Shown here: in pieces, positions 6,620 through 14,498 of the stretch
Position numbering within the stretch: position 1 is the first letter of the stretch
Layout: each line of letters begins with the position of its first letter
Notes under the pieces: model-generated
Seen by the model: the letters and a program-made list of their open reading frames with translations, nothing else
What the model was told of the DNA's origin: nothing
Database searches by the model: none
Position numbers and translations under genes: made by a program
From: an archaeon
GTDB lineage: Archaea > Thermoproteota > Nitrososphaeria > Nitrososphaerales > Gagatemarchaeaceae
Length of the DNA stretch: 64,000 nt
NCBI GenBank assembly: GCA_016432545.1
Contig: CP066694.1
Coordinates: forward strand, 1,178,001 to 1,242,000
Direction: 5' to 3'

Positions 6620-7282
6620 CTAAACCTGCTTCCATTGAAGGCGGATTCCCGAGTCCGAAGCTAGCTTGCTAATCATTGACATAGGTATCATCTCGCCGTA
6701 GCCCAAAGGCAAGGACATGCTGCTTCCAGGCTCACTTTCTTCGTACAGCAAGCTCTGCGATGCGATTCCCATGACAATTCCGTGCTCGTTGAAGACCGGA
6801 CCCCCTGAGTTCCCACGGTGTAAGAGGGCACTTAGCATTATCGGTTGGCCCTTGCTCCTCCATAGTGAGATTACCCCTAGGGTAACAGTAGGCGGATGGG
6901 TCAGTATTCCCTCGTCTTCCTCCCTTGGAGTGATCCACGGATAACCACAAGCAGCCACAACCGTTCCTAGTTCAATAGACTTTCTAGAGGTCAGGAATCT
7001 CAAGGAAGGGGTTGGTCCTCCCATTCCCAAGTATTTCCGGAACGACGGGTCGACCTTCAGTATCGCTGTGTCAGCTTCCTTGTCATACGCCACAACTTCG
7101 TACTCTTCCTCAGCGTCCTCATGCCCGTACCAGTTGACTAGGCCCTCTAGTCTGTGTGGAACGACATGAGCGCACGTGGCGACGTAGCAAGAACTGTCCA
7201 GGACAATTGCGCTGCCTTGACCCTTCCGATTTACGACCTTGACGGTGCTAGCTGCGATGTGGTCAGTGTCGAGGAATTTCAC
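6620..7282 (-). CDS. Trypsin-like (HtrA-type) serine protease, no PDZ domain
   Basis: A 220-residue chymotrypsin-fold protease with its triad visible: His39 in CAHVV, Asp71 in ADTAIL and Ser159 in GNSGGP, plus the oxyanion-loop context LLHRGNSGGPVF. There is no signal peptide, membrane segment or PDZ domain, so it is probably cytoplasmic and effector-like rather than a secreted quality-control protease. It lies last in a minus-strand run behind two DarT-like genes and converges on the methyltransferase gene. Stand-alone trypsin-like proteases occur as effectors in several prokaryotic immune systems; membership here is inferred from location. Confidence 0.85.
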   Translation of the reverse strand: MKFLDTDHIAASTVKVVNRKGQGSAIVLDSSCYVATCAHVVPHRLEGLVNWYGHEDAEEEYEVVAYDKEADTAILKVDPSFRKYLGMGGPTPSLRFLTSRKSIELGTVVAACGYPWITPREEDEGILTHPPTVTLGVISLWRSKGQPIMLSALLHRGNSGGPVFNEHGIVMGIASQSLLYEESEPGSSMSLPLGYGEMIPMSMISKLASDSGIRLQWKQV

Positions 7283-7331: not shown

Positions 7332-7997
7332 TCAATCGGGTAGCCGAGACACGAATGTCGGCGGGGAATCTTCTTCGCTTATGCCGCTCAAAGCCAATTT
7401 CTGACCCACCAACGCAGCCACAGACTCATTGTCAACTACAATCGCCTCAATGTCTTGGGGAAAGCCAACCCATCCCTCGTCATCGTCTAATAGATCGACC
7501 TCGCAGTAAAGCGAACCATGTCTGACCTGGTTGCGTAACGTGCTCAGCAAGTCAGATCCATTCAGAGTCTCGATTCTATTGGCATGCTCCTTGACCGCAA
7601 TATCGGTAAAGAGGAGCAACCTTCTCGCATCAGCGAACTTGAGCACCAGGTCTTCCCTGATTAGTAGGATTACTATTTCCCTGTAGTACGACCTTCGCCT
7701 AAGGACCTTGTGGAGAGACCCGTAGAAGCTGGGATTCTGGACCCTTGGGTCGTCATAATTGCTTTGGAGGTAGATGTCGAGCCCCGTTCCCCTTTGATGC
7801 GAATAGAAACCTGCAAACGTGGGAAGGTAGTTGGTCAACCCAAGCGAGGATCTCTTGGGTTGACGAAGATCTATGGAAACGTCCTTGAATGTAGTCGTAG
7901 TCGACTTCAAGCGAGCCCTACTTCTGAGAGCTGCTTGGCTGATGATGCTATCGATATTGTCGAGATGTGTGTAATGAAAGAGCGGAATCCTTGTCAC
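7332..7997 (-). CDS. DarT-like (DUF4433) ADP-ribosyltransferase-fold protein
   Basis: A 221-residue protein. It opens with FHYTHLDNIDSIIS, the DarT/DUF4433 signature in which the His-Thr-x-x-N segment binds NAD. A FAGFY segment sits at 61-65, where DarT has its aromatic-Phe-Tyr-Phe motif. The candidate catalytic glutamate is Glu166 in YCEVDLL, followed by a strand ending IEAIVVDN, as in ADP-ribosyltransferases. The Arg-Pro element that follows the FYF motif in classical DarT is not clear, so it is a divergent relative whose target may not be thymidine. It is four bases from the DarT-macrodomain fusion gene, probably in the same transcript. Confidence 0.7.
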   Translation of the reverse strand: MTRIPLFHYTHLDNIDSIISQAALRSRARLKSTTTTFKDVSIDLRQPKRSSLGLTNYLPTFAGFYSHQRGTGLDIYLQSNYDDPRVQNPSFYGSLHKVLRRRSYYREIVILLIREDLVLKFADARRLLLFTDIAVKEHANRIETLNGSDLLSTLRNQVRHGSLYCEVDLLDDDEGWVGFPQDIEAIVVDNESVAALVGQKLALSGISEEDSPPTFVSRLPD

Positions 7998-8000
7998 AAA

Positions 8001-9284
8001 CTAAGATAACCTGCCCTGCATTAGGTAGTCCTTCATGATGTACTTGTCTGGGACGTGCTTTTCGGCAGGAAGGTAGACTTGGACCGGTATGTCGAGGCTG
8101 AGGTAGCGACACATCACTGGTCCAATATCTTTCCAATCCAGACCTCCAAGCCCACATCCTAACGCGGGAACAGCAAGAGAGGTTATGCCGATCTGTCGAT
8201 AGTTCTCCTTGATCCACTCCAGGCCTCGCTCGATGTATCTGATGTCCGACATCTCGCGCCAATGATTCTTGGTCGGAAACAGTATGAACCAGGTCCTCGC
8301 ATTCGCATGCTCGAGGCTCTTTGGTTCGTCGGCTAGTTCCTCGTCGAAAGATGACTCCCTCTTGTATATGTTCGGCTTTCCAAGCTTTAGCCTTCCGCTC
8401 CGGCACTTATCTTGATAGTCGACGTAGACGTCGGGGAACTGATACTTAGCCCGTGAAGCGAGCCCCTTCCCCATGACCCCTACACAGTTGACACTCACCG
8501 TCAGCGTCTGCATTCTCGAGAAGAACATGTCGCCGTCCACGACTGAGAGGTAGGGGGTAAGCCGGGTTTCCCTAGTTGGAGCGAAGAACAATGGAGCCTG
8601 CCACATGACGTAACGGTCGTCTCTGTAGAACTCGTCTCTTAGTGCACCTGCCATGTCTTGCTTACCTACGAATACGGCCTCGACGTACTCGGGAGGCACA
8701 AAATCCGGGATGAGAACTTCTGCCATGATCCTTCGCTTGGACCCGTCGAACGAATTCCACCAGTCTGTGTCGATCTGCCTTAGAATCGATTGCTCTTCCC
8801 TGCCGAACCTGTCGATCGGATAAATGGTAGTCTCTGAACTCGCGGCGTTTCCATCAGTAAAGTAGGCTGCCTTGCTCAAGATGCCCTTCCTTACCGTGAC
8901 AATCGCGATCTTCTCCAAAGGATTGTCGACGAGGACCTTGTACATCATCGGATTGCGTGCTTGGAAGTACAGGTTGGCGAAGCTCCATAGGCTGCTACCA
9001 TCCGGTGTCCTGATCCCCTTTCTGTTTGCAACAATGTCCTTGTTGTAGATAGGTGTGTACTTCACCCCACTCTTCTCGACCATGCTATGCGAGAGGATTC
9101 CTTTCGTAACTATGGACTTCAGGTTATCAACATGCGTAATGTAATAGAGCTCTCTGAAGTCCCTCCTCTTTCGCGATTCTCGAGTTCCTCCCCGTCTGGC
9201 TGAAGCTTCTACCATCATCGCACAGCTGCGTTCCGCATCTGTTATACGCTTCTCTCTGGGGTTGGGATCAGCATGGAAGTTCAA
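8001..9284 (-). CDS. DarT-DarG fusion: DNA ADP-ribosyltransferase plus macrodomain in one chain
   Basis: A 427-residue protein with two joined halves. Residues 44-225 are a DarT-type toxin: YYITHVDNLKSI (47-58), LYFQARNPMMY (105-115, with Arg110) and the catalytic-type glutamate Glu189 in MAEVLIPDFVPPEYVE. Residues 250-400 are a DarG/TARG1-type macrodomain: VNCVGVMGKGLA (265-276, with Lys273), FPTKNHWR (336-343) and PALGCGLGGLDW (373-384). In known DarTG systems DarT ADP-ribosylates thymidine in single-stranded DNA and DarG removes it; these are usually separate genes. All key motifs look intact. The start could be the Met at 23 or 24. It is the first gene of the minus-strand run, next to tRNA-Phe. 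Confidence 0.88.
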   Translation of the reverse strand: MNFHADPNPREKRITDAERSCAMMVEASARRGGTRESRKRRDFRELYYITHVDNLKSIVTKGILSHSMVEKSGVKYTPIYNKDIVANRKGIRTPDGSSLWSFANLYFQARNPMMYKVLVDNPLEKIAIVTVRKGILSKAAYFTDGNAASSETTIYPIDRFGREEQSILRQIDTDWWNSFDGSKRRIMAEVLIPDFVPPEYVEAVFVGKQDMAGALRDEFYRDDRYVMWQAPLFFAPTRETRLTPYLSVVDGDMFFSRMQTLTVSVNCVGVMGKGLASRAKYQFPDVYVDYQDKCRSGRLKLGKPNIYKRESSFDEELADEPKSLEHANARTWFILFPTKNHWREMSDIRYIERGLEWIKENYRQIGITSLAVPALGCGLGGLDWKDIGPVMCRYLSLDIPVQVYLPAEKHVPDKYIMKDYLMQGRLS

Positions 9285-9326: not shown

Positions 9327-9440
9327 TGCCGCGGGCCGGACACTCCCAAGCCTTGCGGCCGGATTTGAGCCGGCGACACCTCGGTCTTCAGCCGAGTGCT
9401 CTTAGGTCCGAGACGATCTCCCAGGCTGAGCTACCGCGGC
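9327..9440 (-). tRNA. tRNA-Phe (GAA) with two non-canonical introns
   Basis: Removing two segments gives a clean 74-nt cloverleaf: acceptor GCCGCGG/CCGCGGC, D stem GCTC/GAGC, anticodon stem CTCGG/CCGAG with loop CTGAAGA (anticodon GAA), T stem GCCGG/CCGGC, discriminator A, no encoded CCA. The first insert is 17 nt in the D-arm (about 9402-9418). The second is 23 nt between the T stem and the 3' acceptor strand (about 9335-9357; its exact edges are ambiguous because TCCGGC is repeated). It has a GCC-GCAA-GGC hairpin. There is no intron at the usual 37/38 site. Archaeal splicing endonucleases can cut bulge-helix-bulge introns at such positions. Confidence 0.9.
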
Positions 9441-12858: not shown

Positions 12859-13518
12859 TCATGATTCCCGATGGCATTTACCCGAACGATAAAGTGTGAT
12901 CGTGCTTAGAATGGGGTCGTCTATTTTCTTGAAGTCTGGAGAGTGACTCACCGTCCTGATGGGGGCGAAGCCTGCTATGTTGGCCTTTGGATATGATTCC
13001 CAAAGCTTCAACGCAGAGGCAATCATCGTAGCGCCTCTTGTAACGAAGTCATCTACCAGAAGGATGTTTTCGGGGTCAGTCAGGAGTTTCTGCTCGACCT
13101 TCTGGGAGTCGTAATGCTCTTCAGCTGAAGCCTTGGTTCCGACCGCGTGAGTTCTGACTAGAGAAGTGGAGACGGACGACCCCAAGCCGACCTTGTGCAT
13201 CGCTGTCGCTACTTTGAGTCCCACCCAGAGAGAGTTAGGCTGGAAGAGCGAGCTTCGGGTAACGGGCACCAGAACTGGATTGCCCTCGAATAGAGGCATG
13301 AATGGAAGGGTAGCCTTGGACTCCAGGATCGCTTGAGGAACCACTTCCGACATGAACATTTCTTTGTCTCCATATTTGACAGTCTGTTCATTCTTGAGAT
13401 AGTATCGATAGTCTCTGGAACGCTTTTCGGTGGGGCTCGGTCCCCACGGAGAGTATGACCAGAGGGCACCATAAGTGAGTATCACGTTTCCGTTAGAAAG
13501 AAAGTCCGAGAACTTCAA
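12859..13518 (-). CDS. Phosphoribosyltransferase-fold protein paired with DprA
   Basis: A 219-residue type I PRTase. The PRPP-binding loop is ILLVDDFVTRGATM (two acidic residues, then TRGAT). Upstream sequence (VLVPVTRSSLF) resembles the ComF/HPRT hydrophobic core. It overlaps the dprA-like gene by four bases (ATGA type), so the two are translated as a pair. ComF and DprA act together in natural transformation in bacteria, but DprA-PRTase pairs also occur as accessory, probably defence or DNA-processing modules. Substrate unknown. Confidence 0.78.
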   Translation of the reverse strand: MKFSDFLSNGNVILTYGALWSYSPWGPSPTEKRSRDYRYYLKNEQTVKYGDKEMFMSEVVPQAILESKATLPFMPLFEGNPVLVPVTRSSLFQPNSLWVGLKVATAMHKVGLGSSVSTSLVRTHAVGTKASAEEHYDSQKVEQKLLTDPENILLVDDFVTRGATMIASALKLWESYPKANIAGFAPIRTVSHSPDFKKIDDPILSTITLYRSGKCHRES

Positions 13519-14210
13519 GCAGGGATCTGAAGGATGCTATGCTTTGACGGAAGATGTTCCAGAAGTTCCTTCGGGTCGCTGAGTTTCATCGCCCCGAACT
13601 TCGCCATCTCCTTCGGCCAGGTGAACGACGAATCGAAGAGCCTTTTCCATATGAAGAGCGGCCTTCCGAGTCTCAGGGCCTCATATCCTTGAGAGATAGA
13701 ACCGCTGTCCTCCCCAGCTTGGACTATGACCGAAGCGTCCGCGATTAGGGCCATCGTCCGGTTCCTGCGGACGAAGTTTGACGGAAAGACTTCCGAGCCG
13801 ACCTTGTATTGGGAGACTGCGAGATGACGTTTGATAATCTCCGCCTGGAGTTCCCTATTCTCGGCAGGATAGGTCCTGTCGAGCGGCGTCCCCAAGACTG
13901 CGATTGTTTTGCCCCCCGATTCTATAGTGAACCTGTGCGCGGCCGTGTCGATTCCTTTGGCGAGACCGCTGACAATCACGACTCCTTCCCTCGTCAGGAC
14001 CCTTGCAATATCTCCAGCGTCCGCTAAGCTCTCGGCTGTCGCCTGCCTTGAACCGACAATTGCGACTCTCGGACGCGGAAGGGGAATCCTCATGGTGCCC
14101 GCAGTGTAGAGCTTGCTTGGGGCGTTCCTCTGTTCAATGTCGTTCAGAGGACGGCCAAGAAGTGCTATGGGCGCCCATGTGGAGATTGCCGGCCCCATCG
14201 CTCTCTCCAT
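13515..14210 (-). CDS. dprA: DprA/Smf-like single-strand DNA-binding protein
   Basis: Rossmann-fold DprA: APSKLYTAG, then PRVAIVGSRQAT, VSGLAKGIDTAAHR, GTPLDRTYPAENREL, FVRRNRTMALIADASVIVQA and SGSISQGYEALRLGRPLFI match the family's core motifs. The frame runs open back to 14474, but the first 88 codons are low-complexity and not protein-like. ATG 14210 is chosen because it sits 25 bases after a TATA-like GTAAATA and gives MERAMGPAISTW directly before the family start. About 231 residues, without the usual winged-helix tail. DprA binds ssDNA and loads recombinase in transformation; the partner PRTase follows immediately. Confidence 0.85.
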   Translation of the reverse strand: MERAMGPAISTWAPIALLGRPLNDIEQRNAPSKLYTAGTMRIPLPRPRVAIVGSRQATAESLADAGDIARVLTREGVVIVSGLAKGIDTAAHRFTIESGGKTIAVLGTPLDRTYPAENRELQAEIIKRHLAVSQYKVGSEVFPSNFVRRNRTMALIADASVIVQAGEDSGSISQGYEALRLGRPLFIWKRLFDSSFTWPKEMAKFGAMKLSDPKELLEHLPSKHSILQIPA

Positions 14211-14498
14211 CGACCTCGCACTACCGCGTTTCCTATTTACATGTTCGCTGTTCTCTCTCATAGCCTTGGAAGAGAGGGGCTTCCCCGAAGCTAAACCTTG
14301 CCTTTCTCTCTCATCTGTCTGGTGACGTTCTGAACAACGGTCAGCATCGGACTCTTCCCTTAAGTCCTGACTTCCGCCGTCTCGGCGGAATGGGGATGAG
14401 CCGACAACTCGACGAAGACTTCTCTGAGCCGTTAGCTTGATAGAACCTCGGAATACGACCCCATATATACTCAAGTCGTGGTCCTATGCTAATCTAAC

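Follow-up and report, generated by a model that had tools for sequence, protein, structure and literature searches.

In a 64,000-nucleotide stretch of contig CP066694.1, a complete archaeal-type genome (positions 1,178,001 to 1,242,000; hereafter, the window), we identified a gene that encodes a DarT ADP-ribosyltransferase and a DarG-type macrodomain in a single polypeptide and that probably represents a DarTG2-class (macrodomain-linked) toxin–antitoxin system carried on one chain, with the ADP-ribose eraser acting in cis. The gene adds one member to an already known and structurally solved type of fused DarTG, and the fusion itself is not new; the window copy extends this type to the defense island of an archaeal-type genome. 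The fused DarTG splits the two antitoxin mechanisms that are usually joined in DarG, with the eraser kept and the sequestering domain gone.

Identification of the fused gene and its relatives

The fused DarT–macrodomain gene occupies positions 8001-9284 on the minus strand as one open frame of 427 aa, which opens at TTG and contains no internal stops; the ATG at 9218 is the likely start codon and would yield a protein of 405 aa. Residue numbers given here refer to the 427-aa reading. The DarT half comprises residues 47-214 (8643-9146) and the macrodomain half residues 248-414 (8043-8543), and the inter-half junction, running from the end of DarT into the macrodomain, lies at 8544-8660 (FFAPTRETRLTPYL), all on the minus strand. 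The presence of a DarT toxin and a DarG macrodomain in one polypeptide had been proposed from a sequence-only reading of the window, and profile searches bear this out for each half: the Pfam DarT profile matched residues 47-214 (129 bits; cut-off, 22.5) and the Pfam Macro profile residues 334-387 (30.8 bits; cut-off, 22), and the PADLOC DarT and DarG profiles matched residues 40-219 (1.5e-30) and 247-413 (2.4e-46), respectively. The NCBIfam equivalog cut-offs are not reached by the fused protein (74 of 150 bits for DarT and 152 of 250 bits for DarG), in the case of DarG partly because positions 3-157 alone, of the 338 in the profile, are matched.

The top match in the PDB (phmmer) was 7OMU, which aligned with residues 42-422 of the query (443.7 bits, 6.4e-132). 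This entry, listed by Foldseek under the title “Thermosipho africanus DarTG in complex with ADP-ribose” and released on 2021-06-23, is presumably part of the 2021 Nature study of DarT. The AlphaFold2 model of the fused chain (mean pLDDT 86, pTM 0.84) superimposes on 7OMU over the full chain (Foldseek; TMt 0.93, rmsd 2.1 Å, 382 columns), and the two proteins share ~53% identity, both domains in equal order and spacing, the same triad motif ([Y-Y-E], see below), and the lack of the DarG C-terminal domain. They differ in the host, which is a member of Thermotogota in the case of 7OMU, and at the catalytic Glu, where the window copy is wild type. A protein from a Thermosipho genome (L014) is the same as the 7OMU chain over 388 aligned residues except for this Glu, which is replaced by Ala in the crystallized chain, a substitution that we infer to be engineered. 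Inactivation by Glu to Ala serves to express toxic DarTs (PMC11543638), and its presence in the crystallized copy suggests that the wild type is troublesome to express.

A search for other fused DarT–macrodomain proteins across 84,980 species genomes yielded 26 full-length homologues from independent assemblies, with 36-56% identity, in hosts that include WOR-3, Chloroflexota, Cyanobacteria, Thermosipho, Poribacteria, Planctomycetes, Omnitrophota, Bacteroidia, Aquificaceae, and one Thermoplasmata archaeon. Further copies were found in three genomes of the window's own order (G123, G125, and G473) and a single one in a viral-contig set (L036), so that about 30 full-length fused relatives are available altogether, the homologues being single chains of ~390-430 aa with the C-terminus just past the macrodomain. 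Within the window's phylum, the occurrence of the fused gene is sporadic, with about four clear copies in 398 genomes. The view that known DarTG pairs are two genes thus needs correction, given the natural fusion in 7OMU, available since 2021, and its wide spread among microbes. A search of the available literature retrieved neither a paper describing a DarT–DarG fusion nor a report on the activity of any fused DarTG.

The inter-half segment has an identical length, with no indel, in all 27 homologues compared; the motif FF.P, aligned by eye to the WYY end of separate DarTs, is invariant near the DarT end of the junction; and the junction is confidently modeled by AlphaFold2. The two halves are fused without an added flexible linker. 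In the unrooted trees of both halves, a single branch with 99-100% bootstrap support splits the fused proteins from a small sample of five separate pairs, and the pairwise identities of the two halves correlate (Mantel r 0.80, 0 of 2000 permutations). The single clade recovered for each half, together with the correlated identities, fits one fusion event followed by joint inheritance.

Catalytic residues and domain composition

The residues of the DarT half were mapped by alignment to the Thermus DarT residues given in PMC11543638, the numbering of the PDB chain being 1 ahead of the published one. The key residues are Y48, R88 (equivalent to R51 of the Thermus aquaticus enzyme), Y106 (Y71), R110, M113 (M78), N146 (H119), and E189 (E160). 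The catalytic ART glutamate, E189, is present in 31 of 31 fused proteins, as are Y106 and M113, and R88 is conserved in 29 of 31, with His in L017 and Ile in L018 at this position. Of the two residues that the sequence-only reading had singled out as catalytic-type, Glu189 is indeed catalytic and invariant, whereas Arg110 is the invariant Arg of an R-N-P-M motif, the catalytic Arg51 equivalent being R88. Furthermore, the conservation of the catalytic Glu in all 31 proteins contradicts a predicted loss of activity of one half in all relatives, which had been considered as a possible refutation.

The ART [H-Y-E] motif is incomplete in the window protein, which contains Y48-Y106-E189, that is, [Y-Y-E]. 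The first position of the motif is occupied by Tyr in 31 of 31 fused proteins (LYYITH), in contrast to His in all nine intact separate DarTs (IYHITH, ungapped). The tenth sequence of the separate set (L128) is a truncated frame with Tyr at this position and stands outside the nine intact DarTs; this locus, from another genome of the phylum (1462-1932), appears to be a truncated copy of a fused gene that retains the DarT part only. From the H-x-S/T motif of the family, we take the IYHITH position to be that of the ARTD triad His. Tyr at this position could alter NAD+ handling, and its family-wide presence may explain, in a way open to testing, how cells tolerate such a toxin. The base-contacting position (N146) is Asn in all fused proteins and in eight of the nine intact separate DarTs, and Thermus DarT2 has His; because Asn is common to the fused and most separate DarTs, residue N146 leaves the choice of base undecided.

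The macrodomain half retains the two motifs already noticed in the sequence-only reading, VNCVGVMGKG and PALGCGLGG. The former (N266-GxMGKG) carries the DarG catalytic Lys (K273, the Lys80 equivalent), with Lys in 25 of 27 homologues and Arg in two. The DarG C-terminal DarT-binding domain is absent after the macrodomain in the window protein and in all fused members, and no other match to DarG was detected in the host genome. In separate DarG, this C-terminal domain binds and blocks DarT (PMC7003065; PMC11481870), and plasmid-borne separate DarGs include the C-terminal region, most of them being 344-362 aa long and the Klebsiella DarG shorter (225 aa). In EPEC experiments, the macrodomain alone rescued DarT toxicity in E. 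coli (PMC7003065), which makes an eraser-only antitoxin plausible.

Compared with the two-gene DarTG2 systems of Thermus aquaticus, EPEC, and M. tuberculosis, the window protein shares the DarT fold, the equivalents of R51, Y71, M78, and E160, and a DarG-type macrodomain with the catalytic Lys, but differs from them in being encoded in one frame, in missing the DarT-blocking C-terminal domain, and in having Tyr instead of the triad His. DarTG1 (DarT1 with a NADAR antitoxin) likewise combines a DarT-fold transferase with Asn at the base-contacting position; however, it is guanine-specific and relies on NADAR as the eraser (PMC11543638), where the fused protein has a macrodomain. The ALC1-like macrodomain hydrolases TARG1 and SCO6735, which strip ADP-ribose from DNA, belong to the same macrodomain class as the second half of the fused protein but have no transferase fused to them.

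Proposed mechanism and alternatives

The leading explanation is a writer and an eraser that operate in cis. By analogy with the families named above, the DarT half would use NAD+ to ADP-ribosylate single-stranded DNA on one of its bases, presumably thymine, and the mark would stop replication of invading DNA, providing phage defense, while the macrodomain half, attached at an unvarying spacing on the same chain, would strip the mark. As there is no sequestering C-terminal domain, restraint would have to come from erasure in cis, to which a steric block of DarT by the attached macrodomain possibly adds. Infection might generate much single-stranded DNA or upset the balance between writer and eraser, such that marking exceeds removal; damage is expected to accumulate only under these circumstances, for example, on single-stranded DNA of a replicating invader. 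The two enzyme halves with their retained catalytic residues, the conserved junction, the agreement with 7OMU, and the location in a defense island support this explanation; Tyr in the triad, the missing R88 equivalent in two homologues, Asn at the base-contacting position, and scores beneath the equivalog cut-offs weigh against it.

We also considered the less likely scenario in which the fused enzyme is attenuated or re-purposed, with [Y-Y-E] slowing or changing the use of NAD+, so that it would mark DNA only transiently, for regulation or in conjunction with repair, rather than act as a lethal defense toxin. The replacement of the triad His by Tyr, which is universal among the fused proteins and is not seen in any of the nine intact separate DarTs, would suit such an enzyme, as would the lack of the sequestering domain in every member and the location of the fused gene just downstream, at a distance of ~50-300 bases, of a gene for an MrfA/HRQ1-like helicase in three Chloroflexota-type loci (L004, 5694-7979; L006, 5662-7962; L026, 4887-7703), a neighbor that possibly links the fused DarTG to DNA-adduct repair. 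However, the fused proteins keep the essential Glu and Met and, in nearly all cases, the Arg; the inactivating substitution in the crystallized copy hints that the wild type is hard to express; and defense genes lie beside some copies, namely, a DUF1156 methylase (L028) and a restriction helicase (L016), with housekeeping genes elsewhere. We similarly regard as improbable the notion that the fused subfamily is a distinct DNA-marking cycle and not a classical toxin–antitoxin, in which the transferase, with its [Y-Y-E] motif, would handle NAD+ differently and would be checked solely by a rigidly attached cis eraser, with no sequestering domain.

The cis writer and eraser also have to be weighed against readings that involve the neighboring genes. 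The gene at 7332-7997 (minus strand), which starts 3 bases past the stop of the fused gene and is probably co-transcribed with it, encodes a divergent DarT-like protein of 221 aa, and the two genes could form a unit in which the fused DarTG restrains the DarT-like product. The match of the latter to DarT is weak in Pfam (21.9 bits) and PADLOC (3.4e-5), where it covers the first 60-65 residues, and HHalign gave 95.6% over 179 columns, with mainly the two ends aligned. We consider such a two-gene unit very unlikely, since this protein lacks RxPM and TDGN and its central motifs are unrecognizable, AlphaFold modeled it poorly from the single sequence (pLDDT 34), and no relatives were detected in 398 genomes of the phylum, in plasmids, in viral contigs, or beside other fused genes. 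Even less credible is liberation of the toxin by proteolysis of the linker, as in the previously suggested effector released by cleavage. A trypsin-like protease gene does lie two genes away, as had been noted, in the downstream direction and on the same strand (6620-7282, minus strand), and this or another protease would be the agent; nevertheless, the constant inter-half length, the invariant FF.P, and the confident model across the junction all speak against cleavage, and neither such a protease, absent from the scanned neighbors of the relatives, nor the small DarT-like neighbor is common to the relatives, which also argues against this route. More generally, no conserved partner gene was found in common among the 20 neighboring genes of the relatives scanned, apart from the helicase gene of the three loci above, and, given this variability, the fused gene appears to function on its own. 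Finally, a sequencing or assembly error that merged two genes, envisaged in the sequence-only reading, is practically precluded: the frame is stop-free, the host genome is 100% complete in one contig, and the same fusion recurs in >26 assemblies made independently of one another, as well as in a protein solved by crystallography.

Genomic setting

The fused gene lies in a low-GC island of ~13 kb (GC 0.49-0.54, against about 0.59-0.66 in the flanks and 0.59-0.61 in the genome), which extends from about -4000 to 9000 in window coordinates, its left edge being located ~4 kb outside the window (L121). The plus strand of the island encodes an SNF2 helicase, a NOV_C protein, a DUF1156-type methylase, and a probable ParB-like protein, the last of which was named by eye and has no family match. 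These four genes might constitute a defense operon; as a whole, the set fits no named PADLOC system. On the minus strand, the order is the trypsin-like protease, the DarT-like gene, the fused gene and, beyond it, a tRNA gene. The region looks like a horizontally acquired defense island, which agrees with the scattered distribution of the fused gene in the phylum.

The tRNA gene (9354-9437, minus strand; Rfam tRNA, 32.5 bits) lies at the island's edge, upstream of the fused gene. It contains ~17 extra bases in the D-arm and was missed by ARAGORN; by eye, it is a tRNA-Phe (GAA) with a possible non-canonical intron. A genome-wide search for a second copy of the 3' end of this tRNA, as expected for an attachment site, found none at ≤2 mismatches, and the one tRNA match within ~74 kb, of 13 bases, derives from another part of the tRNA.

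Additionally, we identified a probable ShosTA toxin–antitoxin defense pair at 12859-14474 on the minus strand, in a segment of locally low GC, which consists of adjacent genes for a phosphoribosyltransferase matching PADLOC ShosT (3.5e-11) and a DprA-like protein matching ShosA (1.3e-67).
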